Of a stretch of DNA of 64,000 nucleotides, positions 2,065 to 38,448 are shown one piece after another (position 1 is the stretch's first letter; every line of letters begins with the position of its first letter). The DNA is from Verrucomicrobiota bacterium (GTDB lineage: Bacteria; Verrucomicrobiota; Verrucomicrobiia; Opitutales; Opitutaceae), in contig JACRKC010000058.1 of assembly GCA_016235555.1 (NCBI GenBank), forward strand, positions 1 through 64,000, in the 5' to 3' direction. Below the pieces are notes generated by a model. It saw only the letters and a program-made list of their open reading frames with translations. It ran no database searches and was not told where the DNA came from. The position numbers and the translations under genes were made by a program.

Positions 2065-5000
2065 GTGTCCGTCCCGGTTCCCCAGTCGCCCGCCCGCGGC
2101 GCCGTTTTTCTCTCGTATGCCTCGCAGGATGCCGAGGCCGCGCGGCGCATTTGCGACGCCCTTCGCGCCGCCAGCGTGGAAGTGTGGTTCGACCAGAACG
2201 AACTCGTCGGCGGCGACGCCTGGGACGCGAAGATCCGCAAGCAGATCGCCGAGTGTGCGCTCTTCGTCCCGATCATCTCCGCCAGCACGCAAGCGCGGCT
2301 CGAAGGCTATTTCCGGATCGAGTGGAAACTCGCCGCCCGCCGCACGCACGCAATGGCGACCGCCAAGGCCTTCCTGCTCCCCATCGTGATCGACGCCACC
2401 CGCGACGCCGAGGCCCACGTGCCGGACGAATTCCGCGACGTGCAATGGACCCGCCTGCCCGGCGCCGACGCCCCGGAAAAATTCTGCGCCCGCGTGCAAA
2501 CGCTGCTCGGCGGCGAAGGTAGGGACGCCTCTCCGAGGCGTCCGTCGTCCGATACGAACGCAAGCCGCGGACGTCTCGGAGAGACGTCCCTACCGCCGAA
2601 TCCCGCCCGCCGCACCCCAGTGATTTGGCTCGCTGCCGCGTTGCTGGTTTTCGGCACCGTGGGCGCCAGTCTGTGGCTGAGGCGTCCCGCCTCAGTTCAG
2701 TCCTTAACTCTGAAGCAGGGGACCACAACCACGACCGGGACTTCCGCCGCGCCGCAAACCGAGGCGCAGAAACTCGTCGCACAGGCCCGCGCGCTGTTCG
2801 AGGACGGAGACACCGCCAACCGCGAGAATTTCGTGCTCGCCGAGGAATTGCTGAAACGCGCGCATAATGTCGATCCCGCCGACGGCGAAGTCTGGGCAGC
2901 GCACGCGCAGCTCTCATCGGATTTGGTCACCTACGGATTCGATCGTTCGACTCCGCGAATGGAGGCGCTGAAGATGCAGGCGGAGCGAGCCATCAAGCTC
3001 GCACCGGCCTCGGTCGAGGCCCAGGTGGGCTACGCCGGATATCTTCGGCAATCGGGCCGGCAAGGGGCGACCGCACCAGTCGAGGAGGCGGTGACCCAAC
3101 TCCAAAAGATTCTCGCGCAGGCGCCCCAGCATCGGCGTGCCCTCCGGCTGCTTGGCATGAGCCTCGCTCGGCTACAAAGGTCGGATGATGCCTGCGCGGC
3201 CTTGGATCGCGCCAACGCTGTGCCGGGCGGCGATTCCGAGGCGCTCGTGATCAAGGCCGCGATCCATTTTACCCTGACCGGACGCTACTCCGAGGCCGAG
3301 GAGGCGGTGGCACGATCGCTGGCGATCCGCGTTAACGGCCGGGCGCAGTCGGTCGATGCGCTGCTCAAGCTCACCTGGCACGGCGACCTCGACGGCGCGG
3401 CCCAGGCGGTGGCACGCTGGCCGGCGTGGTTGTTGCTGGAAGATCGAGGGGCTGCGATCGCGGCCGAGGTGGCTCTCTGGCGAGGCGACTGGGAACGGGC
3501 GCTCACCGTGCTCCGCTCGGTGCCTCGCGACTATCTCAACGACCACTATTTCAGCGGGCCAAAGGCGGCACTCATGGCCATCGCACGCGAGATCGCCCAC
3601 CAGCCTGAACCGGCACGGCGCGAGTGGGAAAACGTAAAGGCGGTGACGACCCGCCTGGCCGCCGCCGATCCCTCGGCATCGGAGTTCGTGCTCTGGAAGG
3701 CCTGCGCACTCGCGAAGCTCGGCGAGACCGAAGAGGCACGGCGCCTCTACCGGGACTTGGAACAGACCCGCGACCTCCGATCGATGTTTTGGTCCTGCGC
3801 TTCTCCTGCCGTATTGCTGGCGACGACGCTCGGCATCCCGGGACCGATCGCCACCAAGGCGGGGCTGGACTGGCGCGGCACCAAGCTGTCGGCCGTGGGC
3901 GATGCGCCGCGGGCCGCGCTGCAACTGAACCCCGTGTTCGAGCCAGTCCGCACCACACCGGAGTTCCAGCGATTGATCGCAAGTGCGCCGGCACCGGTGG
4001 CGAAGCCGACCGCCACCATTACGCCGGCCCCGAATGCGGCCGAAAAATCCATCGCCGTCCTCCCCTTCGCCAACGTCGGCGGCGACAAGGATAACGAGGC
4101 GTTTGCCGACGGCATCACCGACGAGTTGATCAGCGTGCTCGGGCGCGTGCCGGGGCTCACGGTGAAGGCGCGCACGTCGTCGTTCTTCTTCAAGGGCAGC
4201 AGCACGCCCGCGCGCGAAAAGGGCCAGAAGCTCGGCGCCGCGTATCTCGTCGACGGCAGCGTGCGGCGCATCGGCGACAAGGTGCGCATCACGGCGCAGC
4301 TCATCCGCGCCGCGACGGAGGAGAACGAGTGGACCCTCGACCCGATCACGGACGACACCAAGGATGTGTTCGCCGTGCAGGAGAAACTCGCCGGCCTGAT
4401 CGCGCAGGCGCTGTCGCTGAAACTCGGCGCGGGCTCCGCCGCCTCGAAAGCGCCGGTGAATCCCGAGGCCTTCGATCTCTATGTGCAGGCGCGGCAGGCG
4501 TGGAACCTTCGCACGCTGGCCGCCTACGACCGCGCCGAGGAGCTGCTGAACCGCGCGCTTGCGTTGGAGCCGAAATTCGCCCGGGCCCATGCCGCCCTTG
4601 CGGATGTCTGGTTGATGCGGTCCAACGAGGCAGGCATGATCGGTCGCTTCGGCCAGCGCAACTCACCCGAGATTCCGCGCCTCCGCGCCCAAGTGGACCG
4701 TGCGCTCGCGCTCGACCCCAATCTCGCCGAGGCGCACGCCGCGCTGGGAAATCTGTTCCTAAATGGCGCTCAAATTGAGGAGGCGGCCCGTGCGTTGCGC
4801 CACGCCATCACGCTCAATCCCAACTATGCCACCGCCCACCAGTGGCTGGGCCGAGTGCTACAGAGTGACGGTCGGTTCGAAGAAGCGCGGGACTCGCTGG
4901 CGCGCGCCGCCGCGCTCGACCCGTTTGCTCCGCGGATCCTGGACAATTACGCCAGCATCCTGGACCAAGAGGGCCGAGCGGCCGAGGCGCTCCCGATCAT

Positions 5001-5454
5001 CGAACGGGCGCTCACGCTCCAGCCCGATTCCGAGCAGGCGACGCTGTTCAAGGCGTTGATCCTGTCTTCGCTCGGCCGACACGAAGAGGCAGTAGCACTG
5101 ATCAAGCGCGAGCCTTATCGGGGTACCGGGCATGCTTCCGAGGCGGTGCGGGTGTTGTTTCGGGCCGGACGCAACAGGGAGGCGGAGCAGATGCTGGCGG
5201 CCAATCCCGGCGGAGAAAATTTCCGGGGCTTGGCGGCCCTGGGCCGGCCGGCGGACGCGCTGGCGGCGATGGACCCGGCAACGATTCGCATTGGGACTTT
5301 CTCCCTTATGTTCATCGACCCGGCTTTCGATCCGGTTCGCCAGGATCCGCGCTACGTGGCGCTCATCACGGAGCTCGGCCTGACCGAAGCCCACGCCCGC
5401 GCACAGGCGTGGCGCGCGGCGCACCCGGCGGAAAAGCCGGCACCCAAGAAATAG
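2065..5454 (+). CDS. TIR - TM - TPR - TolB/FlgO-like - TPR protein (paralog 1)
   Basis: A 1129-aa protein with a GTG start; no in-frame ATG precedes the TIR domain. Residues about 11-130 are a TIR_2 domain (AVFLSYASQDA, WFDQNELVGGDAW). In FRIEWKLA, Glu86 falls where NAD-cleaving TIR domains carry their catalytic Glu. Residues 152-177 are encoded by a palindromic repeat (2518-2594). One hydrophobic helix follows at about 186-205 (VIWLAAALLVFGTVGASLWL). A TPR-like region of about 400 residues comes next and is absent from the two paralogs. A TolB/FlgO-like domain starts at about 660 (KSIAVLPFANVGGDKDN), and TPR repeats run to the end. The C-terminal tail LGLTEAHARAQAWR is shared with paralog 2. 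TIR should be cytoplasmic and the TolB/TPR part periplasmic, or the reverse; topology is not settled. It lies upstream of a TonB receptor. The role is probably sensing or signalling, but this is inference. Confidence 0.85.
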   Translation: MSVPVPQSPARGAVFLSYASQDAEAARRICDALRAASVEVWFDQNELVGGDAWDAKIRKQIAECALFVPIISASTQARLEGYFRIEWKLAARRTHAMATAKAFLLPIVIDATRDAEAHVPDEFRDVQWTRLPGADAPEKFCARVQTLLGGEGRDASPRRPSSDTNASRGRLGETSLPPNPARRTPVIWLAAALLVFGTVGASLWLRRPASVQSLTLKQGTTTTTGTSAAPQTEAQKLVAQARALFEDGDTANRENFVLAEELLKRAHNVDPADGEVWAAHAQLSSDLVTYGFDRSTPRMEALKMQAERAIKLAPASVEAQVGYAGYLRQSGRQGATAPVEEAVTQLQKILAQAPQHRRALRLLGMSLARLQRSDDACAALDRANAVPGGDSEALVIKAAIHFTLTGRYSEAEEAVARSLAIRVNGRAQSVDALLKLTWHGDLDGAAQAVARWPAWLLLEDRGAAIAAEVALWRGDWERALTVLRSVPRDYLNDHYFSGPKAALMAIAREIAHQPEPARREWENVKAVTTRLAAADPSASEFVLWKACALAKLGETEEARRLYRDLEQTRDLRSMFWSCASPAVLLATTLGIPGPIATKAGLDWRGTKLSAVGDAPRAALQLNPVFEPVRTTPEFQRLIASAPAPVAKPTATITPAPNAAEKSIAVLPFANVGGDKDNEAFADGITDELISVLGRVPGLTVKARTSSFFFKGSSTPAREKGQKLGAAYLVDGSVRRIGDKVRITAQLIRAATEENEWTLDPITDDTKDVFAVQEKLAGLIAQALSLKLGAGSAASKAPVNPEAFDLYVQARQAWNLRTLAAYDRAEELLNRALALEPKFARAHAALADVWLMRSNEAGMIGRFGQRNSPEIPRLRAQVDRALALDPNLAEAHAALGNLFLNGAQIEEAARALRHAITLNPNYATAHQWLGRVLQSDGRFEEARDSLARAAALDPFAPRILDNYASILDQEGRAAEALPIIERALTLQPDSEQATLFKALILSSLGRHEEAVALIKREPYRGTGHASEAVRVLFRAGRNREAEQMLAANPGGENFRGLAALGRPADALAAMDPATIRIGTFSLMFIDPAFDPVRQDPRYVALITELGLTEAHARAQAWRAAHPAEKPAPKK
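2518..2594 (+). repeat. In-frame BIME-like palindrome in the TIR-TM linker
   Basis: GTAG (2519-2522), hairpin GGACGCCTCTCCGAGGCGTC, spacer, hairpin GGACGTCTCGGAGAGACGTC, then CTAC (2590-2593). It is 77 bp and translated without a stop. It is 75/77 identical to the copy at 9659-9735. Confidence 0.9.
2673..2738 (+). repeat. Partly decayed BIME just after the TM helix, in frame
   Basis: The left half is intact (GTGG foot, hairpin CTGAGGCGTCCCGCCTCAG). The right half is degenerate (CTGAAGCAGGGGACCACAAC). It corresponds to the intact element at 17215-17280 in paralog 3 and a decayed form near 9818-9887 in paralog 2. Confidence 0.65.
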
Positions 5455-5572
5455 CCCGACCAGACGGGCCGCGCTCATCCGCACGACCATTCGCGTCGGG
5501 GGGCGCCGCTCCGGCGATGCCGGATTGCCATGGCCCACCGGAGGGCCTTGGCTCGGTGCCGTTCCCCACCCC

Positions 5573-8500
5573 ATGAAGACCCTCTCACGCCTGCTGGCGT
5601 TGGCCGGCGGCGCTTTGTTCGCCGCGACCCTCGCCGCGCAGTCCACCCCACCCGCGAAGTCGCCGGACTCCGGGGCGGTCCAGCTCACCCCTTTCCTCGT
5701 GTCGACCGACGGCGACGAGGGCTACCGCGCCGCCAACACCCTCTCCGGCACGCGCATGAACGCCTCGCTCTTCCATACGCCCGCGGCGATCTCCGTGCTC
5801 ACGAGTGAATTTCTCTCCGACATCGGTGCGGAAAACGTCGCCGACATGCTTAAGTTCGCCACGAGCTCCGACAACGAGCGCACCGACTCCGGCGGCGGCC
5901 TCGCGCAGGCATGGGATGTGCGCGCCACCGTGCGCGGCTTCACCGAGTCCGTCATCACGCGCGACTACCTGCCCAACATGGTCCAGAGTCGCGGCATCCT
6001 CGCCAACGACCGCTTCAACGTCGATCGCGCCGACGTGAGCCGCGGGCCCAACTCCATCCTCTACGGCGCGAGCCGGCCCGGCGGCGCGTTCAACCTCAAT
6101 TCCAAGCGCGCCGTGCTCAACGGCCGCCAGAAGTCCGCCCAGTTCACCGTCGGCCGCTTCGCGAAAAAGCGCAGCGAGGTCGATTTCGCCTTCCCGCTCA
6201 TCAAGGACAAGCTCGCCCTCCGCACCAACGCCATGTGGGAGGACCGCCGCGGCTGGTTCGAGTTCGAGATGTTGCGCGCCAAGGGCGCCGCGGTCGCGAC
6301 GACGTGGCAGCCGTTCAAGCACACGCAGGTGCGCACCGGGGTGGAGCGCATGGTGCGCGCGCAGGTTTCGCCCGGAAATTTTCCGCAGGCCGACTTCGGC
6401 TATTCGCGCTGGGTGCTCAACGGCGCGCCCAAGGCACCCAACCCGCTCCAGCCCGCCACCAACCCCGCGCCCTCGCTCCTGCGCGTGATCAACACCCTGC
6501 AGGCCGTCTACGCTCCGCAGGTGCGCGCGCAGCCGTTCCGCCTTTCCACGACCGGGGCCGACATGCGTCCCGATCTCGCGGGCACGCAGGGTCCCGGATT
6601 TTTCGAGACGATCAGCGCCGCCGCCGCGCCGTCCGGCGGCACGATGGACGATCCGTTCTACGGGCAGGTCATTCCCGCCAACGCCTACCTCGCCGGTCCC
6701 GGGCGCAGCACCAACAACGACTACACGCTCGCCTCCGTGTTCATCGACCAGCGCGTCGGCCCCGTCAGCTTCGAGCTCGGCTACGCGCGCACGACCTACT
6801 TCCGCGGCTTCACCCAGCCCAACGTCAACGCCATCGGCGATGCCAACCCCGTGCTGCCCGGCGCCTACTTCGCCGACGGCGACTCGGTCATCGCCGCCGG
6901 CCGGCTGCCCGGCACGCTGCTGCCCGACATCGCGCGCGCCAATCCCTTCGTCGGCCGGCCCTACGTGCAATCGCAGGCGATCCGCCAGCTCTTCGACCAA
7001 CGCACCGAGACGTGGCGCGCCACCGTCGGCTACGAACTCAACCTCGCCCGCCGCCGCGCGTGGCTCGGCCGCCACAGCCTCGCCGCCTCGTGGCAGAAGG
7101 AGCGCAGCTACTTCGGCAACGGCAACATCGCGGAGTTCAACCTCGCCCCCGGCAACACGCAGCCCATCGACTCCGCGACCAACACCATTCTCCGCCGCAC
7201 GTATCTGGATTTTTCCACGCCCGGCGGCGCGCGCGGCGCCCTCGACGCGTGGGCCAACCCGATCCCGGAGTCGCCCGGCATGAAGGCCGGCTTCGTCTAC
7301 AACGGCCTCTACCCGTGGGTCGCGCAGCGCAACACCAGCGGCATGCTCGCGCTCCAGAGCGGCTGGGCCGGCGACCGCATCGTGTTCACCGGCGGCTACC
7401 GCCGCGATCGCGCCGAGGTCATGGACGCCGACGCCGGCGGCATCCGCCTGCCGAATTCCACCAACGCCTGGCTCCTGCGCCCCTACCGTTTCGAAAACGC
7501 CACGCGCACCACCAACCTCGGCACGACCAAGACGCTCGGCACCGTCGTCACCGCGTTGCCGTGGCTCGGCCTGTCCTACAACCGCTCGCAGAGCGTGTTT
7601 CCGCAGGGTGCGTTCAAGGACATCTTCGCCCGCGTGCTCCCGCCCATCGAGGGCGACGGCCAGGATTACGGCGTGCGCCTCATGCTGCTCGGCGGCCGCC
7701 TCTCGGCCAACTTCAACCTCTACCGCGCCGAGGGCGTAAACCAGTTCCAGCCCTCGCTCAACGCGCCCAAGAACAACATCTCCACCGCCGCCAACGCCGC
7801 GCTCACCACGCTCCGCGCGCGCGGCCAGGCGCTCCCCGCCTCCGTCGCCGCCGCCGGTATCACACTGCTCAACACCGAGTCGCAGGCGCGCGACGCCTCC
7901 GACCTCGAGGGCCGCGGCACGGAGTTCGAAATCACCGGCCGCCTCGCGCCGGGTTGGAGCCTCTCGCTCAACGTCGCCCGCAACCAGCTCAAGCAGGCCA
8001 ACATCCTTTCCGACTCGATGGCCTTCCTCCGCAGTGTGAAAGCCGACTGGGAACGCAGCGCCACGCGCCTCGACGACACACCCGCCGTGGTCGCGACGTT
8101 CGTGCGCACGCGCGACGGCACGCCGCAACGCGACTTCGTCACCAACCCCGCGACCTTCGCCGACGTCTACGCCTACGGTCTCTCCGTCGCCGATCCATTT
8201 CTGCGCGGCACGGGCAAGGCGCCCTTCGCCCACGTGGAGAAAACGTTCAACGCGTTCACGAGCTACCGGTTCGCCGCCGATGCCCCGCGCTTCGCCCGCG
8301 GCGTGCGCGCCGGCCTCGGCGCCAACTACCGCGGCCCCGCCGTCATCGGCTACGACGCCGCCAACCACGACGCCGTCATCCCCGGCCGCAGCGCGATCAC
8401 CTGGAACGGCATGCTCGGCCAACGCTTCGCCCTGCGCCGCGGCCAGTCGTTCGACCTCCAGCTCAACGTCGAGAACATCTTCGGCCAGGAGGCCCGCCTC

Positions 8501-8593
8501 CCGTATTCCGCCACCGCCCCCGGCGTCATCGTGCGCTTTTTGCTCCCGCACGTGCGCCACTCGTGGACGATGCGGGCGACGTATGGATTTTGA
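5573..8593 (+). CDS. TonB-dependent outer-membrane receptor
   Basis: 1006 aa. The ATG chosen precedes a signal peptide ending near LAAQS (about residue 23). VQLTPFLVS near residue 40 is the usual start of the mature TonB-box/plug region in this clade, followed by a plug domain (about 50-190: NVADMLKFAT, DRFNVDRADVSRGPNSILYG) and a long beta-barrel ending in an aromatic-terminal strand (MRATYGF), as expected for BAM recognition. It imports a large ligand across the outer membrane using TonB/ExbBD, which are not in this window. There is no SusD homologue beside it. It is 118 bp downstream of TIR paralog 1. Ligand unknown; the sulfatase context suggests oligosaccharides. Confidence 0.92.
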   Translation: MKTLSRLLALAGGALFAATLAAQSTPPAKSPDSGAVQLTPFLVSTDGDEGYRAANTLSGTRMNASLFHTPAAISVLTSEFLSDIGAENVADMLKFATSSDNERTDSGGGLAQAWDVRATVRGFTESVITRDYLPNMVQSRGILANDRFNVDRADVSRGPNSILYGASRPGGAFNLNSKRAVLNGRQKSAQFTVGRFAKKRSEVDFAFPLIKDKLALRTNAMWEDRRGWFEFEMLRAKGAAVATTWQPFKHTQVRTGVERMVRAQVSPGNFPQADFGYSRWVLNGAPKAPNPLQPATNPAPSLLRVINTLQAVYAPQVRAQPFRLSTTGADMRPDLAGTQGPGFFETISAAAAPSGGTMDDPFYGQVIPANAYLAGPGRSTNNDYTLASVFIDQRVGPVSFELGYARTTYFRGFTQPNVNAIGDANPVLPGAYFADGDSVIAAGRLPGTLLPDIARANPFVGRPYVQSQAIRQLFDQRTETWRATVGYELNLARRRAWLGRHSLAASWQKERSYFGNGNIAEFNLAPGNTQPIDSATNTILRRTYLDFSTPGGARGALDAWANPIPESPGMKAGFVYNGLYPWVAQRNTSGMLALQSGWAGDRIVFTGGYRRDRAEVMDADAGGIRLPNSTNAWLLRPYRFENATRTTNLGTTKTLGTVVTALPWLGLSYNRSQSVFPQGAFKDIFARVLPPIEGDGQDYGVRLMLLGGRLSANFNLYRAEGVNQFQPSLNAPKNNISTAANAALTTLRARGQALPASVAAAGITLLNTESQARDASDLEGRGTEFEITGRLAPGWSLSLNVARNQLKQANILSDSMAFLRSVKADWERSATRLDDTPAVVATFVRTRDGTPQRDFVTNPATFADVYAYGLSVADPFLRGTGKAPFAHVEKTFNAFTSYRFAADAPRFARGVRAGLGANYRGPAVIGYDAANHDAVIPGRSAITWNGMLGQRFALRRGQSFDLQLNVENIFGQEARLPYSATAPGVIVRFLLPHVRHSWTMRATYGF

Positions 8594-8665
8594 AAGGGCG
8601 CGGGCCATCCAGCCCGCATTTCTCCTACCGCGGCAGCCGCAACCAAAAGTGAAGGAGTCAGAATC

Positions 8666-8742
8666 ACCGCGGATTACGCGGATCGCGCGGATCAAGGCAG
8701 AGACTGCGCGGAATCATCGGCGCCATCGGCGTAATCCGCGGT
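8666..8742 (+). repeat. Inverted repeat of the 'CCGCGGATTACGCGG' type
   Basis: 14-bp arms in inverted orientation around a loop with further partial matches (CGGATCGCGCGGAT, ATCGGCGCCATCGG). Related arrangements occur at 15598-15673 and 50290-50370. Confidence 0.7.
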
Positions 8743-9011
8743 CAAAAAATTCCAGGCTCTGGAAATCGTCGCAGCAGGCGACGATACGAACCGATGGTAA
8801 TGCACGTTTTCTCGGTTCGGTTTCAGCCGCAGAGTGCACAGAACTCAGACACAAAGAGCACGGAGCAAGACAGCGCGTTTGGCTCTGTGGGCTCTGTGTC
8901 AGCGCTCCGTCTCCTCGGTGGCTCATGTTTGGTCGATTCGCCGTGAACTTTCCGGGATAGTGCGCCCTTCTTTGTCGAGCGCGCCATGCCGGAAGCCGGG
9001 AACGGGCGGAT

Positions 9012-9094
9012 CTCAGTTTCCTGCAGTCCGGAGAGAGCGACGGAGCGGCGGTTTTCAACCGCCGAGCTTGGGCGCTTGGAAAAGCGCCCCTCCG
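9012..9094 (+). repeat. 83-bp two-hairpin repeat, copy 1
   Basis: Contains hairpins GGCGGTTTTCAACCGCC and GGGCGCTTGGAAAAGCGCCC. A close copy lies at 55690-55773, next to the ECF sigma gene. It ends about 108 bp before the start of TIR paralog 2. Confidence 0.85.
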
Positions 9095-9202
9095 CCGGGC
9101 AAGAAAGTGCGCCCCACCCGACGCGCCCGCCCCGCAACTTGAGCGTTGAGCGTTCGGCGTTCGGCGTTGAACGTTCTGTCTCCCTCCACTGCTTCCCACC
9201 GC

Positions 9203-11335
9203 ATGTCCAGCCCCGCGCCCACGCCCGCCCCGGCCGGCCCCGCCGTCTTCCTGAGCTACGCCTCCCAGGACGCCGCGGCCGCGAAGCGCATGTGCGACAC
9301 GCTGCGCTCCGCCGGCGTGGAAGTATGGTTCGACCAAAACGAACTCGTCGGCGGCGACGCCTGGGACGCGAAAATCCGCAAGCAGATCGCCGAGTGCGCC
9401 CTCTTCGTCCCGATCATCTCCGCGAGCACGCAAGCGCGCACCGAAGGCTACTTCCGGCTGGAGTGGAAACTCGCTGCCCAGCGCACGCACATGATCGCCG
9501 ACGACGCAGCGTTTCTGCTGCCCGTCGTGATCGATGACACGCGCGACGCCGACGCCCGCGTGCCCGCCGAGTTCAAGTCCGTGCAATGGACGCGCCTCCC
9601 CGCCGGCGAATCCGCAGAGAAGTTCCGCGCGCGCGTGAAAACCCTGCTCGGCGGCGAAGGTAGGGACGCCTCTCCGAGGCGTCCGTCGTCCGATACGACC
9701 GCAAGCCCCGGACGTCTCGGAGAGACGTCCCTACCGGAAAAACCAACGCGCCGCCGCGTCCCCGTGGCGGCATGGATCGCAGGCGCGCTGCTCGTCGCGC
9801 TCATCGTCGCCTCCAGTCTATGGCTGAAACATCCCGCCTCGGAAAAATCACCGCCACCGAACCTGAGGCAAGGTGCGTCCGCCACGACTCCTACCGCTCC
9901 CGCCGCCGCCGCGCAAAAATCCGTCGCCGTCCTCGCCTTCAAGAACCTCAGCGGCGATCCGACGCGGGAGTTTTTCTCCGACGGCCTGAGCGAGGCGGTG
10001 TCGGACGTGCTCGGGCGCGTGCCGGGCTTGAAGGTCGTCGGCAGCGCCTCGGCGTTTTCCTTCAAGGGCAAAGCCGTCCCCATCCCGGAAATCGCCCGGC
10101 AGCTCGGCGTGACCCATCTCGTCGAGGGCACCGTGCTCCAAGACGGCTCGACCGTGCGCATCACCGCGAAGCTCACCCAAGCCGACGGCTTTCAAGTCTG
10201 GGTCTCCGACAAACTCGACCGCGAGCTGAAGAACATCTTCGCCCTGCACGACGAAGTCGCCGGGCTCATCGCCAAAAATCTCTCGCTGAAGCTCGGCGTC
10301 GCGACCGGACGGTCGCAGCGGGAGATAAATCCGGAGGCCTATCAACTCTACATGCAGGCCCGGCAGGCTTGGAATCTGCGCAATACGGAAGGGCTCGCCC
10401 GGGCCGAGGGCCTGCTGGATCGCGCGCTCAAGCTCGAGCCTGACTACGCCCAAGCTCACGCGGCGTTGGCCGATGTCTGGATCTCTCGCAGTGGGCAGGC
10501 CGGTGCCTTTGGCACCTTCGAACATCGTCGATCGCCGGAGAAAGCGCGCGTCATGGCGAAGATCGAGCACGCGCTGCGGCTCGATCCCGATTCAGCCGAG
10601 GCGCGGGCCTCATTGGGAGCTGTCGCTTGGTATGATTGGGATTTCACCACCGCCGAACGCGAACTGCGGCGTGCCATCGCGCTCAACCCCAACTACGCCC
10701 CGGCCCACTCCTGGCTGGGCCGCGTCATGCAGTCACAGGGGCGGACGGATGAGGCCTTGGCCGAGTTGCGCCTCGCCACGGAAATCGACCCCCTGTCTCC
10801 GGTCGTGCTCGCGAACTACTGCGGCCGCCTCGTCGAGGTCGGCCGCGAGACCGAGGCGCTCGCCGTGGCCGAACGGGCGCTCGCCCTCCAGCCGGACTCC
10901 CGCCCGGTGCTCACGCACAAGGGGCACGCGCTGCTCAACCGCGGCCTCCTGCCAGAGGCGGCGGCGGTGGCGCGCCAGTTGGTGGCGACCGGACCGACCG
11001 ATCCCAACAACCTGTTTCCCGCCGTATTCATTCTCGCCGGCGCCGGAGCGACGGCCGAAGCGACGACCATGATGGCGCAGCTTCCGGCCAGGGGCAGGCT
11101 CCCTCGCAGCGCCTTGCTCCTGGCCTTTGGCAGGCGCGACGAGGCGATCGCCGCCTTGGATGCACCAGGGCAGAACGTGAATTTCCTTGGCTATGTGCTC
11201 TACGACCGGCGCTACGACCCGATTCGCAGCGACCCACGCTTCGCAAAATATCTCGCCGATCTCGGCCTGACCGAAGCCCACGCCCGCGCGCAGGCGTGGC
11301 GCCAGGCCCATCCGCCGGAGAAACCCGCCAAGTAG
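9203..11335 (+). CDS. TIR - TM - TolB/FlgO-like - TPR protein (paralog 2)
   Basis: 710 aa, from the ATG just before the TIR domain; a TTG 57 bp upstream is possible but sits in non-conserved sequence. TIR_2 at about 13-135 (AVFLSYASQDAAAAKR, WFDQNELVGGDAW), with the putative catalytic Glu87 in FRLEWKLA. Residues 153-178 are repeat-encoded, and a single TM helix follows (about 188-210). A TolB/FlgO-like domain spans about 237-368 (KSVAVLAFKNLSGDPTREFF, VTHLVEGTV). TPR repeats follow (AYQLYMQARQAWNLR, NPNYAPAHSWLGRVMQSQGR). It ends with the LGLTEAHARAQAWR tail shared with paralog 1. Similar TolB-TPR halves in other bacteria are joined to cyclase or winged-helix domains; here TIR takes that place. 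A LamG gene starts 20 bp downstream, so the two are probably co-transcribed. Confidence 0.88.
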   Translation: MSSPAPTPAPAGPAVFLSYASQDAAAAKRMCDTLRSAGVEVWFDQNELVGGDAWDAKIRKQIAECALFVPIISASTQARTEGYFRLEWKLAAQRTHMIADDAAFLLPVVIDDTRDADARVPAEFKSVQWTRLPAGESAEKFRARVKTLLGGEGRDASPRRPSSDTTASPGRLGETSLPEKPTRRRVPVAAWIAGALLVALIVASSLWLKHPASEKSPPPNLRQGASATTPTAPAAAAQKSVAVLAFKNLSGDPTREFFSDGLSEAVSDVLGRVPGLKVVGSASAFSFKGKAVPIPEIARQLGVTHLVEGTVLQDGSTVRITAKLTQADGFQVWVSDKLDRELKNIFALHDEVAGLIAKNLSLKLGVATGRSQREINPEAYQLYMQARQAWNLRNTEGLARAEGLLDRALKLEPDYAQAHAALADVWISRSGQAGAFGTFEHRRSPEKARVMAKIEHALRLDPDSAEARASLGAVAWYDWDFTTAERELRRAIALNPNYAPAHSWLGRVMQSQGRTDEALAELRLATEIDPLSPVVLANYCGRLVEVGRETEALAVAERALALQPDSRPVLTHKGHALLNRGLLPEAAAVARQLVATGPTDPNNLFPAVFILAGAGATAEATTMMAQLPARGRLPRSALLLAFGRRDEAIAALDAPGQNVNFLGYVLYDRRYDPIRSDPRFAKYLADLGLTEAHARAQAWRQAHPPEKPAK
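9659..9735 (+). repeat. In-frame BIME-like palindrome in the TIR-TM linker, copy 2
   Basis: Same family and reading frame as 2518-2594: GTAG foot at 9660-9663, CTAC at 9731-9734, two differences in 77 bp. Confidence 0.9.
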
Positions 11336-11355
11336 ACCTCACGCGCATCCCCTTC

Positions 11356-12210: not shown

Positions 12211-12393
12211 CTGCACGATGCGACGCACTGCCGCCCGACTCCGGCCGGCAGTCTGGCGATGGGTGCATTCGCACGCTCGCCACCGCCGGTCCGGCCAAAC
12301 TAGCTTGCCTCACCTCCGCCGGCAACGCGTGGACGGTTGCCGCTCACACCGACTCCCGCCCAACGACCTGCCGGGACGCCCCGCATCACCATC

Positions 12394-13851
12394 ATGAAAC
12401 TGATACCCCGCTCCTGTCTGATTCCGTTGCTCGCTGTCACGCTGGCGCAGGCCTTCGCCGCGACGCCCACGCCGGCCCTGAGCTCACCGAATGGGCGCCC
12501 CAACGTCGTCCTCGTCATGGCCGACGACCAAGGCTGGGGCGACACCGGCTACAACGGGCACCCGGCGCTCAAGACACCCCAGCTCGACGCCTTGGCCGCG
12601 ACGGGCCTGCGTTTCGACCACTTCTACACGGCGCATTTCAACTGCTCGCCCACCCGCGCGAGCATCATGACGGGGCGGCATCCGCATCGCATGGGCACCT
12701 TCAGTCCGGGTTCCCCGATCCGCGCGCAGGAGGTCACGCTGGCCCGGGTGCTGCAGTCCGCCGGCTACGCGACGGGCCACTTCGGCAAATGGCACCTCAA
12801 CGGCAAGAATGGCGACCGCGACACCAAGACCCCGCCGGGCCGCGCGATCCTCGCCGACGATCCGCTGTCGCCCGGCAAGCTCGGTTTCGACGAGTGGCTC
12901 TCCGCCGACAATTTCTTCGACCTCGACCCGGTGCTCGGTCGCAACGGCGTGCCGGAAAAATTCCGCGGCGACGGGTCCGACATCGTCACCGACGAGGCGC
13001 TGAAGTTCATCCGCAAGCAGGCCGCCGCCGCCAAACCGTTTCTCACTGTCGTATGGTTCGGCAACCCGCATGTGCCGCACGAGGCGTTGCCCGCCGACAA
13101 GGCGCTCTACGCCAGATTCTCCGAGGCGGATCAGAATTACTACGGGGAACTCGCCGCCATCGATCGCAACGTCGGCAAGCTGCGCGCGGCGCTGCGCGAG
13201 CTGAACGTCGCCGCCAACACGATCCTCTGGTATTGCAGCGACAACGGCGGCGCCGCCGGCCCGAACTCGACCGGCCACCTGCGCGGCAGCAAGGGCACGT
13301 TGTGGGACGGCGGCCTGCGCGTGCCCGGCATCGTCGAATGGCCCGCGCGCATCCCGCGGCCCTTCGTGAGCGATGTGCCGTGTTCCACCTTGGACATCTA
13401 TCCGACGATCCTCGCCGCCACCGGCGCGAAGGCGGAAAAGCAGATCCAACCCCTCGACGGGATCAACCTGCTGCCGTTGTTCGACGGCCAGATGACGGCG
13501 CGCGGCAAGGCGATTCCCTTTGTGTCTCGGCTTGGACAGGAAAATCCCCACGGGGCCCTGATCGACTGGCCCTACAAGCTGCATCTCGACGCCGACCGGA
13601 ACCAAACCAAGAAAGGCGGCGGTCTACCCACCGCTCCCGTCATGCTCTTCGATCTCTCGAAGGATCCGAAGGAAACCACCAACCTCGCCGCGAGCCAACC
13701 TGATCGCGTCGCGAAGATGACGGCAGAGTTCGCCGCCTGGAAAGCCTCCGCATTGAAGAGCCTCGCTGGCGCCGACTACGACGGAAGCACGCCCCTCCAA
13801 CCGCCTCCCGCTGCCGACGGAACCAACAAGCGCGGGAAAAAGAAACGATAG
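12394..13851 (+). CDS. Exported sulfatase (arylsulfatase/alkaline-phosphatase superfamily), no. 1
   Basis: 485 aa with a signal peptide (about 1-23). RPNVVLVMADDQGWGD carries the metal-binding Asp pair (Asp44/Asp45). Cys84 in NCSPTRASIMTGR is the Cys converted to formylglycine. FGKWHL and NGGAAGPNSTGHLRGSKGT are further conserved sulfatase segments. Length is typical of S1-family sulfatases. It hydrolyses sulfate esters, probably from a polysaccharide; family-level substrate cannot be told. The maturation enzyme (FGE or anSME) is not in this window. The segment after the signal peptide, PALSSP, matches that of the next sulfatase. Confidence 0.92.
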   Translation: MKLIPRSCLIPLLAVTLAQAFAATPTPALSSPNGRPNVVLVMADDQGWGDTGYNGHPALKTPQLDALAATGLRFDHFYTAHFNCSPTRASIMTGRHPHRMGTFSPGSPIRAQEVTLARVLQSAGYATGHFGKWHLNGKNGDRDTKTPPGRAILADDPLSPGKLGFDEWLSADNFFDLDPVLGRNGVPEKFRGDGSDIVTDEALKFIRKQAAAAKPFLTVVWFGNPHVPHEALPADKALYARFSEADQNYYGELAAIDRNVGKLRAALRELNVAANTILWYCSDNGGAAGPNSTGHLRGSKGTLWDGGLRVPGIVEWPARIPRPFVSDVPCSTLDIYPTILAATGAKAEKQIQPLDGINLLPLFDGQMTARGKAIPFVSRLGQENPHGALIDWPYKLHLDADRNQTKKGGGLPTAPVMLFDLSKDPKETTNLAASQPDRVAKMTAEFAAWKASALKSLAGADYDGSTPLQPPPAADGTNKRGKKKR

Positions 13852-13922
13852 GCCCGCCGAACGCCTTTGCCGCGCCGCCCCCTGCTCCCGCGGCACGCGA
13901 CCGGTGCCACTCCCGAAAATCC

Positions 13923-15584
13923 ATGAAAGCAATCCACCGCTTCCTCGTCCCAGCCCTGCTCCTGCTCATGTCCGCTGGAGGCTTTGCCGCCGCGCCCGTG
14001 CCAGCCCTGAGTTCGCCGATTGCGCGCCCCAACCTCCTCGTCATCCAGACCGACGAGCATAATTTCCGCACGCTCGGCGCCTACCGCGCGCTCCTCCCGC
14101 GCGCGCAGGCGGAAATCTGGGGCGAGGGCATCAAGGTCGAGACCCCCAACATCGACTGGATCGCGGCCCACGGAGCGCTCGCGGATCGGTTCTACGCCAC
14201 GTCGCCGGTGTGCACGCCGTCGCGCGCCGCGCTCATGACTGGGCGCTATCCGCAGAACACCGGCGCCATCCGCAACGACCTCCCGATGCGCGACGATATG
14301 GTCACCTTCGCCGAAGTGCTGCGCCGCGCCGGCTACGCGACCGGCTATGCGGGCAAATGGCACCTCGACGGCGAGGCACGGCCCGGCTGGACGCCCGCCC
14401 GCAAGTTCGGCTGGGAGGAAAACCGCTACATGTTCAACCGCGGCCACTGGAAAAAACTCCTCGAGGACGAGCGCGGCCCGCGCGTCGGCCCGGTCAATGC
14501 GCAGGGCGTGCCCACCTACGCCGTCGACGGCGCTGACGCGAAATCGTTCACCACCGACTTCCTCGCCGATCGCACGATCGACTTCATCCGGCGGCATCGG
14601 GACCGGCCGTTCTGCTGGCATGTGAGCCTCCCCGATCCGCACGGGCCCAACACCGTGCGCGCGCCCTACGACACGATGTTCCTCGGCCTCGACTTCCAGC
14701 GCCCCGCGAGCGCGCAGTCACCGGGGAAAAATCTTCCGCCCTACGCCGCCACGCTCGCCGGCGTCTTCAACCGCGCACAGATGGCGCTCTACTTCGGCAT
14801 GGTGAAGTGCATCGACGACAACGTCGGCCGCATCCTCGCTGCGCTGCGCGAGACCGGCGTGCTCGAGCGCACCTTCATCGTCTTCACCTCGGACCACGGC
14901 GATCTCTGCGGCGAGCACGGTCGCGATAACAAGGGCGTGCCGATGGAAGCCTCGTCGCGGATTCCGTTCTTGCTGCACGCGCCCGGGGTCGTGCCGCCCG
15001 GCACCGTTGTCCGTCAGGCGCTCGGCAACGTGGACTTCAAGCCCACCATCCTCGCCCTCATGGGCATCGCCAACCCGGCGCCCGACGAAGGCCGCGACGC
15101 CTCCGCGCTCTTCCGTGGCGCGCCGCCACTCGCCGGCTGGGCCGATCAGGCGTTCATCCGCATCGGCGGCGGCCCCGTCCGCGCCGCCGCCGCGAAAGGT
15201 GAAGACGGCGAGATGGCCGAGGGCGCAGGCTGGATGGGCGTCTTCAGCCGCCGCCACAAATTCATCGTCGCGCCCAACGCCGCGCCGAGCCTCTTCGACC
15301 TCGAAAGCGACCCCAACGAATTGCACAACCTCGTCGGCGACATGTCCGCCGAAGGCTCGGCGAAGGTGGATCCCGCGCACCGCGTCGCCATCCGCCTCCT
15401 CGGCGCCGCGCTGCTCGATTACGCGCAACGCCACCACGATCCCCTGCTCGCCACCGCGCGCGTGAAAGCCGACCTCGCGTGGGCCGCAGGCGATCGGGCC
15501 GACTACCCCGGCCCCCTCCAGCCCGCACCCGAAGAACCCGCCGCGAAGAAAAAGGGCAAAGGGAAAGCCGCGAAAAAATCCTGA
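13923..15584 (+). CDS. Exported sulfatase no. 2
   Basis: 553 aa, with a signal peptide (about 1-24). The first metal motif is IQTDEHNF instead of the common TDDQ. Cys97 in VCTPSRAALMTGRYP is the formylglycine site. Later motifs are YAGKWHLDG and FTSDHGDLCGEHG. The C-terminus is Lys-rich (KKKGKGKAAKKS), as is that of sulfatase no. 1 (KRGKKKR) and no. 4. It is 71 bp downstream of sulfatase no. 1, so a transcription unit with it and the LamG gene is likely. Probably acts on a different sulfate position or sugar from its neighbour, given the diverged active-site region. Confidence 0.92.
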   Translation: MKAIHRFLVPALLLLMSAGGFAAAPVPALSSPIARPNLLVIQTDEHNFRTLGAYRALLPRAQAEIWGEGIKVETPNIDWIAAHGALADRFYATSPVCTPSRAALMTGRYPQNTGAIRNDLPMRDDMVTFAEVLRRAGYATGYAGKWHLDGEARPGWTPARKFGWEENRYMFNRGHWKKLLEDERGPRVGPVNAQGVPTYAVDGADAKSFTTDFLADRTIDFIRRHRDRPFCWHVSLPDPHGPNTVRAPYDTMFLGLDFQRPASAQSPGKNLPPYAATLAGVFNRAQMALYFGMVKCIDDNVGRILAALRETGVLERTFIVFTSDHGDLCGEHGRDNKGVPMEASSRIPFLLHAPGVVPPGTVVRQALGNVDFKPTILALMGIANPAPDEGRDASALFRGAPPLAGWADQAFIRIGGGPVRAAAAKGEDGEMAEGAGWMGVFSRRHKFIVAPNAAPSLFDLESDPNELHNLVGDMSAEGSAKVDPAHRVAIRLLGAALLDYAQRHHDPLLATARVKADLAWAAGDRADYPGPLQPAPEEPAAKKKGKGKAAKKS

Positions 15585-15597
15585 ACCCTGATTTTTG

Positions 15598-15673
15598 ACC
15601 ACGGATTACACAGATAACACGGATAAATCCGCGCCACAGCTCATCTATCCGTGTTATCCGTGTAATCCGTGGT
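15598..15673 (+). repeat. Perfect-stem inverted repeat (ACCACGGATTACAC type)
   Basis: 28-bp arms (start ACCACGGATTACACAG) separated by about 20 bp. It lies between sulfatase no. 2 and the next start codon and could act as a terminator or attenuator. The left arm has small mismatches to the right one. Confidence 0.85.
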
Positions 15674-15680
15674 TACCTTC

Positions 15681-16466
15681 ATGAAGCCCTTTTCCCACCT
15701 GTTACTCGCCCTGTTGCTCCCGATCGGTGCCCTCGCCGCCGCACCGGAAAAAAAGCTCCCGCTTCCTGGCGAACTCTTCCTCGTCGCCGATCAGCCGGCG
15801 TTCCTGATTTCCGCGCCGGCCGCCCCGGCCGGGAAGCCGAAGCCGTGGGTCTGGTATGCGCCCACGCTCCCGCCGTATCCCAGCGACGCGGAGAAGTGGA
15901 TGTTCGAAAAATGGATCGCCGCCGGCATCGCGATCGCGGGCATCGACGCCGGCGAATCCTACGGCAGCCCGGCGGGTCGGAAACTCTTCACCCGGCTCTA
16001 CCTCGAACTCGTGCAATCGCGCGGCTATTCGTCGCGCCCCGTGCTGCTCGGCCGCAGCCGCGGCGGCCTGCAACTGCTCAATTGGGCCGCCGACAACCCC
16101 GACAAGGTCGCCGCGTTCGCCGGCATCTATCCCGTCTGCAATCTCGCGAGCTACCCTAGCCTCGCCAAAGCCGCGCCCGCCTACGGCCTTACCGTCGAGC
16201 AGCTCACTGCTACCCTCACGCAACACAACCCGATCGACCGCCTCGCCCCGCTCGCCGCTGCCCGCGTGCCGCTCTTCGTCCTCCACGGCGACGCCGACAA
16301 AATCGTGCCCCTCGCGCTCAACTCCCAAATCGTCCGCGATCGCTATCTCGCCCTCGGCGGCGACGTGACACTCATCATCCCATCCGGCCAGGGGCACAAC
16401 ATGTGGCCCGGATTTTTCGAATCCACAGAACTCGTCGAGTTCGTTCTCGCCCACGCCCGGCGCTGA
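15681..16466 (+). CDS. Exported alpha/beta hydrolase
   Basis: 261 aa starting at the ATG of a signal peptide (MKPFSHLLLALLLPIGALAA). The alpha/beta hydrolase core has nucleophile Ser126 in GRSRGG, an acid in HGDADKIVPL and the catalytic His in GQGHNMW, so the triad looks complete. It resembles the prolyl-oligopeptidase/dienelactone hydrolase branch; an esterase acting on glycan acyl groups would fit the context, but this is inference. It follows sulfatase no. 2 across the palindrome at 15598. Confidence 0.82.
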   Translation: MKPFSHLLLALLLPIGALAAAPEKKLPLPGELFLVADQPAFLISAPAAPAGKPKPWVWYAPTLPPYPSDAEKWMFEKWIAAGIAIAGIDAGESYGSPAGRKLFTRLYLELVQSRGYSSRPVLLGRSRGGLQLLNWAADNPDKVAAFAGIYPVCNLASYPSLAKAAPAYGLTVEQLTATLTQHNPIDRLAPLAAARVPLFVLHGDADKIVPLALNSQIVRDRYLALGGDVTLIIPSGQGHNMWPGFFESTELVEFVLAHARR

Positions 16467-16479
16467 ACTTCCTCCGCTC

Positions 16480-16539
16480 GTAGTTCCGCCTTCAGGCGGA
16501 AGGATTGAGTCGGACGATTCCGGCTGAAGCCGGGACTAC
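16480..16539 (+). repeat. BIME-like palindrome, GTAG ... CTAC
   Basis: GTAG, hairpin TTCCGCCTTCAGGCGGAA, spacer, hairpin TTCCGGCTGAAGCCGGGA, CTAC. Intergenic, 14 bp after the hydrolase stop. Confidence 0.85.
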
Positions 16540-16630
16540 GAACTCGAGCCGCCCGCCCGGCACAATGAACTCGCCACCCGGCGCCGGCGGTTTTCAAGTC
16601 TGCGGCGTCCCAGCACTCCCCTGATCCACG

Positions 16631-18955
16631 ATGTCCGCTCCTGACAGCCAAGCGGTTTTTCTCAGCTATGCGTCCGAGGACGCGGCGGCCGCGCGGCGCA
16701 TCTGCGAATCGCTGCGCACGGCCGGCGTCGAAGTCTGGTTCGATCAAAACGAGCTCGTCGGCGGCGATGCGTGGGACGCGAAGATCCGCAAGCAGATCGG
16801 CACGTGCGCGCTGTTCGTGCCCATCCTCTCCGCCAGCACGCAGGCCCGGCTCGAAGGCTACTTCCGTCTCGAATGGAAACTCGCCGCCCAGCGCACGCAC
16901 ACGATGGCGGAGGAAAAGACGTTCCTCCTGCCCGTCGTCATCGACGCCACACGCGACGCCGATGCGAAAGTGCCCGCCGAGTTCAAGGCCGTGCAATGGA
17001 CCCGCCTGCCCGACGGCGAAACAACGCCCGCCTTCGTCGCCCGCGTGCAGCAGTTGCTCGGACTGGCAGTGGCACGGGTCTCCCGACCCGTGGGTCCGGA
17101 AATCACGGGTCAGGAGACCCGTGCCACTCCGCAGAAGGTGGGCCGCCGCGTCCCTGCGGCGGCATGGCTCGCCGCCGCCACGCTGCTGCTGGTCGCGATC
17201 GCCGGCGCCAGTCTGTGGCTGAGGCGTCCCGCCTCAGGAACACCGCCGTCTCCGGACCTGAGGCGGGACGCCTCAGCCACGACTCCTCCCGCCGTCTCCG
17301 ACAAATCCATCGCCGTCCTGCCGTTCGCCAACTTGAGCGACGACAAGGACAACAACGCGTTCTTCGCGGATGGCATTCACGACGACATTCTCACCGGTCT
17401 GGCGGTCATCCGCGAACTGCGCGTGGTCTCGCGCACCTCGGTCATGGAGTATCGGGGCACGACCAAGAAAGTTCGGCAGATCGCGCAGGAACTCGGCGTG
17501 GCGTATATCCTGGAGGGTAGCGTGCGCCGTTCGGGCAGCACGGTGCGTGTCACCGGCCAGCTCATCCGCGCCGCGACGGACGAGCATGTGTGGGCGGAAA
17601 ATTATACGAAGAGCTACACCGCGACCGACGTGTTCGCGATTCAGTCCGAGCTGGCCCAGAAGATCGCCGCCGCGCTTTCGGCCGCGTTGTCTCCGCAGGA
17701 AAAGACGCTCCTCGCGCGCAAGCCGACGGAAAACTCCGCCGCCTACGAACTCTATCTCAAGGGCCGGGATGTGCGGCGCGAGAGCCGGGGGCTGGCGGCA
17801 TTCCGCAAAAGGGAAACGCTTTTCCAGGCGGCGGTGGAACTCGATCCGCAGTTTGCGGAAGCGTGGGGTGAACTGGCGGTGACGCATACGGCCTTCCTCT
17901 TCGACAACCTCGACAAGAGCCCGACCCGGCTGGCCAAAGCCCAGGCGGCGATCGACCGCGCGGTCGAACTCGCCCCCGATTCGCTCGATGTGATCCGCAG
18001 CCTGGCGGATTTTTATCTCAACGGCACGCGCGACGTGATCAAGGCGACCGAACAGTTGGAGCGGCTCGTCCGTCTCTCGCCCAACGATCCCAGCGCGCAC
18101 GATCGCCTTTCGGTGGTGCAATATCGGCGGGGCCTTTGGTCCGAGGCTTTGGCCACGCGGCGCAAATCGATCCAATTGGATCGCGGCAATCTCCAGTCGG
18201 CGGGCGGCTTGGTTTCTTTGTGCGAAACCGCTCGCCGCTACGATGAAGCGATGACCGAGCTGCGCCGGATGATGACCCTGCGGCCGGGCCGGATCGGCGA
18301 CGCCATCGAGTTCGGGCAACTGGCGTTCTATGCCCGCGGCTCGACCCGCGAAACCAACGACGTCCTCGCTCGTTTGTCGCCGCAGGAACTCAATGCGCCC
18401 GAGCTGATCGGCATTCGCAAGGACTGGGCCGTCATGCGCGGCGACCTCGCCGAGGCCAGCCGGCTCGACCGCCTGCAACCCTATTTCGACGATGCTTACT
18501 CGGCCCGTGAGAGCCAAGCGGTGGCCGCCGCCATGGTCTTGCTGGCCCAAAACAATCGGGCCGGCGCGCGGGCGCGCCTCGAAAGTCTGCCCGCACAACT
18601 CCGCTCGCGGATCGAAACCGAACCGACCAACGAGGGCGTGTGGCGTAACCTGGCGTTGATGGAAGCGATCCTGGAGAATCCATCCGACGCACTGCGCTAT
18701 GCCCGGAAAGCCGTGGAGGTCGGTGAAGCGATGGGCCCCATCCGCGGCGCACGATCCGGCGTCCATCAGGCCATCGTCTATGCTTGGACGGGCGACAAGG
18801 ACCGTGCCATCGCCGAACTGGCCCGGCTGCTCAAGGTGCCGGCCGGCCCGAACGTCCACGTGATGCGATCCAGTCCCAATTATGCGCCCCTCCGCGGCGA
18901 CCCGCGCTTCGAGGCGCTGCTCAACGACCCGAAGAACAACGCGCCGCTCTTCTGA
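16631..18955 (+). CDS. TIR - TM - TolB/FlgO-like - TPR protein (paralog 3)
   Basis: 774 aa. TIR_2 at about 7-128 (AVFLSYASEDAAAARRIC, WFDQNELVGGDAW), with the putative catalytic Glu81 in FRLEWKLA. Residues 146-166 come from a GTGG-type palindrome of a different family from that in paralogs 1 and 2, at the same linker site. A TM helix follows at about 174-196 (AAWLAAATLLLVAIAGASLWL). Residues 195-217 come from a second palindrome. The TolB/FlgO-like domain starts at about 222 (KSIAVLPFANLSDDKDN, GVAYILEGSV). TPR repeats cover about 370-770. The TIR and membrane parts are close to paralogs 1 and 2, whereas the TPR half differs and lacks their common C-terminal tail, consistent with different inputs. 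Function unknown; sensing or signalling is the likeliest role. Confidence 0.87.
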   Translation: MSAPDSQAVFLSYASEDAAAARRICESLRTAGVEVWFDQNELVGGDAWDAKIRKQIGTCALFVPILSASTQARLEGYFRLEWKLAAQRTHTMAEEKTFLLPVVIDATRDADAKVPAEFKAVQWTRLPDGETTPAFVARVQQLLGLAVARVSRPVGPEITGQETRATPQKVGRRVPAAAWLAAATLLLVAIAGASLWLRRPASGTPPSPDLRRDASATTPPAVSDKSIAVLPFANLSDDKDNNAFFADGIHDDILTGLAVIRELRVVSRTSVMEYRGTTKKVRQIAQELGVAYILEGSVRRSGSTVRVTGQLIRAATDEHVWAENYTKSYTATDVFAIQSELAQKIAAALSAALSPQEKTLLARKPTENSAAYELYLKGRDVRRESRGLAAFRKRETLFQAAVELDPQFAEAWGELAVTHTAFLFDNLDKSPTRLAKAQAAIDRAVELAPDSLDVIRSLADFYLNGTRDVIKATEQLERLVRLSPNDPSAHDRLSVVQYRRGLWSEALATRRKSIQLDRGNLQSAGGLVSLCETARRYDEAMTELRRMMTLRPGRIGDAIEFGQLAFYARGSTRETNDVLARLSPQELNAPELIGIRKDWAVMRGDLAEASRLDRLQPYFDDAYSARESQAVAAAMVLLAQNNRAGARARLESLPAQLRSRIETEPTNEGVWRNLALMEAILENPSDALRYARKAVEVGEAMGPIRGARSGVHQAIVYAWTGDKDRAIAELARLLKVPAGPNVHVMRSSPNYAPLRGDPRFEALLNDPKNNAPLF
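17069..17127 (+). repeat. In-frame BIME-like palindrome, GTGG/CACGGGTC family
   Basis: GTGG, hairpin CACGGGTCTCCCGACCCGTG, spacer, hairpin CACGGGTCAGGAGACCCGTG, CCAC. The same family is intergenic at 22448-22506. Confidence 0.9.
17215..17280 (+). repeat. In-frame BIME-like palindrome, GTGG/CTGAGGCG family
   Basis: GTGG (17215-17218), hairpin CTGAGGCGTCCCGCCTCAG, 20-bp spacer, hairpin CTGAGGCGGGACGCCTCAG, CCAC (17277-17280). Length is 66 bp, translated directly after the TM helix. Related intergenic units lie at 38394 and 40402. Confidence 0.9.
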
Positions 18956-22447: not shown

Positions 22448-22506
22448 GTGGCACGGGTCTCCTGACCCGTGGAGAACGGGATCACGGGTCAGGAGACCCG
22501 TGCCAC
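22448..22506 (+). repeat. BIME-like palindrome, GTGG/CACGGGTC family (intergenic copy)
   Basis: GTGG (22448-22451), two hairpins CACGGGTCTCCTGACCCGTG and CACGGGTCAGGAGACCCGTG, CCAC (22503-22506). Nearly the same as the in-frame copy at 17069. It lies in the leader of the TonB receptor gene. Confidence 0.9.
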
Positions 22507-38393: not shown

Positions 38394-38448
38394 GTGGACG
38401 AGCCGTCCCGGCTCGTTTCTCAGCCCTGAGGCGAGACGCCTCAGCCAC
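38394..38448 (+). repeat. Chimeric BIME-like palindrome (two different stems)
   Basis: GTGG, hairpin ACGAGCCGTCCCGGCTCGT, spacer, hairpin CTGAGGCGAGACGCCTCAG, CCAC. It begins five bases after the stop of sulfatase no. 3. Confidence 0.87.

Follow-up and report, generated by a model that had tools for sequence, protein, structure and literature searches.

GTAG-footed REP dimers have been described from within open reading frames (ORFs), where they encode 20-30 amino acids (PMC3733652, 2013, of which only parts were available). According to the same parts of that source, intragenic GTAG REPs reach their highest count in Opitutus terrae, a member of the Verrucomicrobia, and the recB genes of two Xanthomonas species contain different REPs at about the same site. 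GTAG is an important tetranucleotide in the TnpA-REP/RAYT systems, one of which also cleaves a GTGG variant (PMC8266576, available in part); a Y1 transposase gene located between its own REPs is known as the REPtron layout (PMC3733652 and PMC8266576, within the sections available). Palindromes of another kind, the Rickettsia palindromic elements (RPEs), are found in frame in many ORFs, where they are tolerated by the protein (PMC10969869, available in part).

The window analysed here is a stretch of 64,000 nucleotides, contig C21 of the source genome (G000, an 8.03 Mb draft in 140 contigs), and it contains three TIR genes whose reading frames run through palindromes with GTAG or GTGG feet. Opitutus terrae belongs to the family Opitutaceae. 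Like the intragenic GTAG/CGTC REPs of PMC3733652, the elements are GTAG-footed dimers that lie in ORFs; however, in the available parts of that paper the host genes are unrelated, many of them concerned with DNA repair, and mostly differ in the site of insertion, whereas here ten families occupy one seam of one paralogous gene family in many genera. As in the TnpA-REP/RAYT systems, Y1 genes are located between their own REPs, and a role within coding sequences is not described in the available part of PMC8266576. The initial annotation of this DNA drew an analogy with Rickettsia, which holds for in-frame residence within coding sequence but fails for the type of element: RPEs are about 150 bp and reside in unrelated genes (PMC10969869, in its available part), while the elements described here behave as RAYT-type REP dimers and measure about 48-84 bp, with GTAG or GTGG feet and, in some families, cognate Y1 transposases. 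It was also stated at that stage that no such case was known for membrane TIR sensors. In-frame REPs have been published, including those of O. terrae (PMC3733652, in part), and the kind of arrangement is thus already known. No report of REPs in TIR linkers was found in a literature search that covered titles and the beginnings of abstracts, open-licence papers without their supplements, and part of the matches; the recolonisation of one seam by many families was not found in the literature searched either, supplements again not being covered.

The coordinates of the TIR genes and of the associated palindromes are compiled in Table 1. The arrangement first proposed from the three window genes is borne out, in that palindromes are present in the linkers of all three paralogs, inside the open frames of TIR_2 and TPR proteins. 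The linker elements of paralogs 1 and 2 belong to the same family (75 of 77 positions identical, 2518-2594 versus 9659-9735), paralog 3 carries a different one, and behind the membrane (TM) helix gene 3 has an intact element, gene 1 one that is preserved by half (2673-2695), and gene 2 an eroded one. A palindrome scan of the window recovered four in-gene palindromes with arms of 24-27 nt and a complementarity of 93-100%. Copies between genes were confirmed at 22448 and 40402, and the one at 38394 is composed of two related units. Missing from the earlier list was the single family M REP of gene 3 (17138-17164), and that list was confined to three TIR genes; the genome holds 31 more with a readable linker, 22 of which could be labelled with an element.

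Table 1. TIR genes of the window and the palindromic elements within and between genes
Feature	Coordinates	Strand	Remarks
TIR gene 1	2065..5454	+	TIR_2, TM, TPR; 1129 aa
Family A REP dimer, in-frame linker of gene 1, GRDASPRRPSSDTNASRGRLGETSLP	2518..2594	+	27-nt arms, 93% complementary
Family C REP dimer after the TM helix of gene 1	2673..2738	+	left arm 2673-2695 intact, right arm eroded
TIR gene 2	9203..11335	+	TIR_2, TM, TPR; 710 aa
Family A REP dimer, in-frame linker of gene 2	9659..9735	+	27-nt arms, 93% complementary
Eroded family C dimer after the TM helix of gene 2	9820..9885	+	by eye; repeat family D8
TIR gene 3	16631..18955	+	TIR_2, TM, TolB-like (by eye), TPR; 774 aa
Family B REP dimer, in-frame linker of gene 3, VARVSRPVGPEITGQETRAT	17069..17127	+	palindrome called 17068-17128, 25-nt arms, 96%
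Single family M REP, gene 3, GTGGGCCGCCGCGTCCCTGCGGCGGCA	17138..17164	+	encodes VGRRVPAAAW, start of TM helix
TM helix of gene 3, residues 176-197	17156..17221	+	AlphaFold2 model
Intact family C REP dimer after the TM helix of gene 3	17215..17280	+	24-nt arms, 100% complementary
Family B dimer, intergenic	22448..22506	.	palindrome and repeat search
Intergenic dimer of two related REP units, one of them family C	38394..38448	.	
Family C dimer, intergenic	40402..40459	.	palindrome and repeat search

Family M units are encountered at the TM helix of several other TIR genes (L002, L003, L017, L021, L030 and L037), where the peptide VGRRVPAAAW represents a unit before the helix and NAGAGTRPP an inverse unit after it. 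Among the matches listed for the source genome, a GCCGCC arm variant of M is seen only beside TIR genes, apart from one unchecked near-match (C132:56). The idea that the TM helix is the loop of a composite REP, with inverted M units on either side, fits L002, L003 and L037 but was rejected as a general description. A further REP family of the window, GTAGGTCGGGCTTTACGCCCGAC, is present at 26544, 52438 and 54934; it borders the Y1 gene L140 on both sides and adjoins another Y1 gene (L145). Other repeats of the window include an inverted repeat at 52552-52629, TTGTCATCCATTAGATGACAA, whose 21-nt arms match perfectly across a spacer of 36 nt and which is AT-rich and unlike the REPs, and two repeated stretches, one of 118 nt with 87% identity (9003-9120 versus 55681-55798) and one of 104 nt with 70% identity (1-104 versus 62302-62405).

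The protein module that precedes the linker is a TIR domain (Pfam TIR_2 at 70-74 bits against a cut-off of 28), and Foldseek relates it to SPARTA TIR-APAZ, AbTir and SARM1 at E values of 1.2e-5 to 1.4e-4. A full-length match to a named TIR anti-phage system was not obtained, the best PADLOC match being of 44.7 bits and limited to the TIR part, and no NCBIfam TIR equivalog scored above its cut-off. In an AlphaFold2 model of residues 1-242 of gene 3, built with 23 sequences, the block means over residues 1-140 are 76-97 pLDDT, with 10 of the 14 blocks above 90, while those over residues 151-180 are 56, 48 and 59, and values after residue 200 are 40-51. Based on these low values, the segments encoded by families B and C are predicted to be disordered on each side of the TM helix. 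The site had been characterised as lying before the membrane helix, and this is correct for the window genes; it is not strictly juxtamembrane, however, and is better placed at the edge of the TIR module, as in L014 and L018 the domain that comes next directly adjoins element B and a TM helix is not visible. A third insertion point is found in the TIR tail after the residues WTRLP, where an insert codes for PLRQAQG or GYGGQARL (L012, L017, L019, L020, L014 and L018, and the SXSC loci L238, L239 and L252). The DNA of this insert resembles short palindromic repeats; as a genomic repeat it was not recovered, two patterns having no match at up to one mismatch in 464 kb of the source genome.

The linker elements are short palindromes with a GTAG or GTGG foot, mostly arranged as inverted dimers, although families I and D have variant feet. 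The elements found at this site include family E (GTAGGGCGGGGTC), family F (GTAGGCCCGGTC), family G (GTAGGGGCGTCGC) and family J (GTAGGAGCGGCTTTACGCC). At up to three mismatches the source genome contains 68 half-sites of family A (20 of them exact), 239 of family B and 128 of family C, and none for the reversed-pattern controls of these three; family M has 114 sites under the same threshold against one for its reversed control. Family G is represented by 28 sites in the source genome and 12 in G150, and family J by 35 in G092 and 18 in G067, TIR linkers being counted in for both. Family I is less secure as a repeat: eight sites (up to three mismatches) were found in G150, at least one of which is, by position, the linker of L278, and a single site in G151, which is the linker itself, whereas G092, G070, G053, G152 and G153 have no site at this threshold, so that the family probably occurs outside a linker in G150 and does so in at most one of the seven genomes searched. 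Families A, B/B′, C, E, G, J and M are repeats, family I is so in at most a single genome, and this statement does not extend to D, F, H and K. B and B′ have their foot and outer stem in common and may be one family.

Ten matches to the Y1 transposase profile (PF01797) are present in the source genome. Three of the genes have REP units of their own family on both sides, namely L143 (family A), L144 (family B) and L142 (family E), and units of a J-like family surround a fourth, L141; no family C unit lies within 900 nt of any of the ten matches. Overall, the data support the view that the elements behave as RAYT-type REP dimers of the GTAG superfamily, their mobilisation by RAYT being inferred, as no transposition was observed.

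Occupancy of the linker was assessed across the TIR family. Among 150 genomes from the same bacterial family, 47 (counting the source genome) have matches to the TIR part at E values of 1e-35 or lower. The source genome has 44 matches to the TIR part, and to these were added 78 TIR genes read from relatives and 62 more from named genomes, 18 of 80 named loci having been left out as duplicates of the G set. The named genomes are, by title, mostly Opitutaceae and Opitutae metagenome-assembled genomes, with a few titled otherwise; for the relatives, best or chosen matches were taken rather than every match. Removal of 19 genes without a readable linker, ten of them among the 44 of the source genome, reduced the 184 TIR genes to 165. 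Family labels rest on peptide patterns with hand corrections, and the counts per family were not produced by a program.

In the source genome, 25 of the 34 readable TIR-to-TM linkers carry a labelled element from one of seven families (B in 14, A in four, E and B′ in two each, and D, F and G in one each), and nine are unlabelled. Across all 165 genes, an element label was assigned in 88, and 77 have no recognised element; ten element families are seen at the linker site, with B and B′ counted as one, and those of the relatives include D, E, F, G, H, I, J and K. A scan independent of labels, for which two of the 165 genes were too short, found palindromes with a score of at least 15 in 35 of 163 linkers. 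Four control windows taken from these genes gave 0 of 163 each, as did codon-shuffled linkers, and the window behind the TM helix was positive in seven of 163 genes. Within the source genome the same scan was positive for 17 of the 34 linkers and for none of the control windows. Arrays of TIR genes, in which several copies have different C-terminal modules, are found at 38000-54400 of contig C84 of the source genome (L045), on contig C110 of G065, on contig C20 of G021, and on SXSC01000025.

REPs are not restricted to TIR genes. Among 53 sampled family B elements outside TIR genes, 33 are intergenic, eight are at gene edges and 12 are inside genes. When the first 30 half-sites each of families A, B and C were placed, seven, six and five, respectively, fell within other called genes and five, two and four within TIR genes, some of these being the two arms of one element; the gene calls behind these counts come from our own codon-usage script. 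In-frame REPs were noted in genes that by eye resemble those of Ser/Thr kinases (L324 and L132), which may thus be another family that has received such insertions repeatedly. In 464 kb of the source genome, consisting of the window and 400 kb chosen regardless of TIR genes, a palindrome score of at least 17 is reached by three of three TIR genes against four of 333 other genes called by the same script. The proposal that mobile intergenic units reside in frame at a tolerated site agrees with these data, that is, with multi-copy repeats and with many families at one site. Tolerance alone, however, leaves unexplained why the TIR family is occupied so much more than other genes.

We consider it probable that in an expanded TIR family of the Opitutaceae REP dimers have repeatedly colonised, in frame, the disordered seam at which the TIR domain meets the TM/C-terminal part, and that further spread took place by duplication and recombination. 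The GTAG/GTGG-footed dimers would be non-autonomous elements of RAYT (Y1 tyrosine) transposases, and their entry into the seam by this route is inferred. The seam would tolerate some 17-29 extra residues, mostly hydrophilic; that the inserts are neutral, and that they are translated into protein, are likewise inferences. The GC-rich palindromes have at least one frame free of stops, so that in-frame copies could survive, and a resident copy, being part of a gene, would be protected from deletion, yet an element of a different family could take its place. Additional copies would arise when TIR genes are duplicated, recombine or, probably, pass from one species to another.

A more active part for the elements can be envisaged, in which REP dimers drive modular evolution and identical palindromes in the linkers of different genes serve as points of recombination or strand exchange, through which TIR domains become attached to new TM and C-terminal modules. 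Along 582 pairs with TIR identity of at least 80%, mean identity is 82% in the TIR domain and 67% in its tail, and drops to 32% in the linker, 35% in the TM helix, and 30% and 28% over the next 60 and the next 100 residues, so the seam coincides with the element. When 927 such pairs were compared by blastp, 418 lacked a C-terminal match or overlapped by less than 40%, 440 have a C-terminal identity below 45%, 47 fall between 45 and 65%, and 22 are above (19 of the 165 genes were left out because the C-terminal part was too short). For only six of 133 genes is the nearest TIR neighbour also the nearest C-terminal neighbour, and incongruence is plain in 16; 32 of the 165 genes, with no called TM helix or too short a tail, were not included in the neighbour and segment comparisons. 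Pairs with a common element family have 83% identity in the TIR domain and 28% in the C-terminal part but keep 60% in the linker, and downstream collinearity is kept by 17 of the 360 pairs with an element in both genes versus nine of 36 with none in either. These observations would suit a recombinogenic role, yet the 36 element-free pairs show the same cliff (TIR about 82%, linker 33%), so shuffling needs no REP and has not been shown to depend on one, although a link is not excluded. Part of the cliff could also be produced by rapidly evolving C-terminal modules, and no breakpoint has been mapped within an element. Modular evolution driven by REPs is regarded as unlikely. A combined version, in which the dimers are exchangeable joints supplied by RAYT at the edge of the TIR module, providing recombination with a common sequence and in this way helping to deal one TIR domain onto new membrane and sensor modules, is a doubtful proposition.

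The diversity of palindromes could also be traced to a single insertion in a founder TIR gene, followed by duplication and by divergence of the descendants. The fixed site is in keeping with this, and on a tree of the 165 TIR domains the labels are clustered: 74 label changes are needed, with the absence of an element treated as one state and a minimum possible of 11, while shuffled labels require 83.8 on average and none of 200 shuffles was as low as 74. Even so, the labels disagree with the tree. It rests on 123 columns and is weak, 14 of its 162 inner branches being starred; taken by themselves, these 14 require no fewer than five changes for B, at least four for G and at least three each for I, J and E. 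Against a single insertion stand ten distinct arm sequences, and at least five families (A, B, E, G and J, with I probably in G150) repeat outside TIR linkers or flank a transposase gene in at least one genome. The element may differ between TIR domains that are nearly the same: a G065/G021 pair with 98% amino acid identity has G in one gene and an eroded I-like element in the other, and G092/G070 (97% identical) has a degenerate J versus none. In a more distant pair, G112/G070 (88%), E is opposed to none. The comparison of related genes proposed in the initial annotation has thus the outcome foreseen there, since they differ in the presence and family of the palindrome; the tree cannot separate gain from loss, and any order of gain, loss and swap is inferred.

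For family B, an inherited component is apparent. Codon phase 1 is common to its copies in TIR genes, and the loop is of 11 nt in 17 of 17 copies with two readable arms, while B elements inside other genes are in phase 2 in ten of 12 cases. Loop likeness is 0.50 among TIR copies, 0.36 between TIR copies and the genomic pool, and 0.66 within the pool (12 TIR loops of the source genome, L007 and L018 excluded). Owing to the common phase and loop length, and to TIR loops being more alike to each other than to the pool, entries of family B into TIR genes were probably few and were followed by spread among these genes; the left B arm nevertheless equals the exact genomic consensus in 13 of 17 TIR copies, despite diverged TIR flanks. 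A single ancestor is rejected as the full account, which the distinct families make improbable, and is retained in part for family B. The original reading of mobile insertion stands overall, with the qualification that a separate insertion in every gene is not the likely origin of all copies: some, chiefly those of family B, seem to have been inherited or to have passed from one TIR gene to another.

Selection for the palindrome itself is improbable to much the same degree. Here the element would be kept as an mRNA hairpin that slows translation ahead of the TM helix or as a signalling peptide in the linker, and strong hairpins do lie directly before the TM-coding part. In some genomes, moreover, the TIR linkers alone hold a family: they contain four of four G half-sites in G065, four of four J half-sites in G148 and the one J site in G154, all judged by their position next to TIR matches and at up to three mismatches, and at up to one mismatch the only two paired B′ elements of the source genome and the only three opposed B′ pairs of G128 are in TIR linkers. 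Such confinement also fits protection from deletion within a gene, or the arrival of the TIR gene from elsewhere, either of which is a simpler account of retention. Against selection stand the 77 of 165 genes without a recognised element, the peptides of the different families, which are alike only in hydrophilicity, and eroded copies that persist within open genes (L003, L011 and the post-helix element of gene 2). Arm variants of the form CATGGG..CCCATG (L014, L018, L031 and G085) were considered as compensatory changes that would prove a selected hairpin; this was rejected, as they look like REP subtypes, seemingly recurring, judged by peptides, in the B elements of other genes (L324 and L330). 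That intergenic repeats were misread as linkers through faulty annotation or assembly can be set aside almost entirely, for although the draft consists of 140 contigs and includes broken TIR copies (L013 and L039), the frames are open for hundreds of codons on each side in many genes and genomes and run on into the TM helix and the TPR or TolB-like module, in relatives as well.

Repeated colonisation of a tolerant seam, with subsequent spread, remains the preferred account. In-frame REPs were previously a scattered curiosity; here ten REP-like families fill one protein seam in one bacterial family. The TIR genes of this family provide a replicated natural experiment, with one site, occupied or not by an element, in dozens of paralogs, and the element families may be used as markers of gene exchange between species. 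It can now be asked whether the presence of selfish palindromes in disordered linkers is neutral or whether it aids the shuffling of immune-type receptor modules. If colonisation and module exchange were indeed joined, a selfish element would be a generator of receptor diversity.
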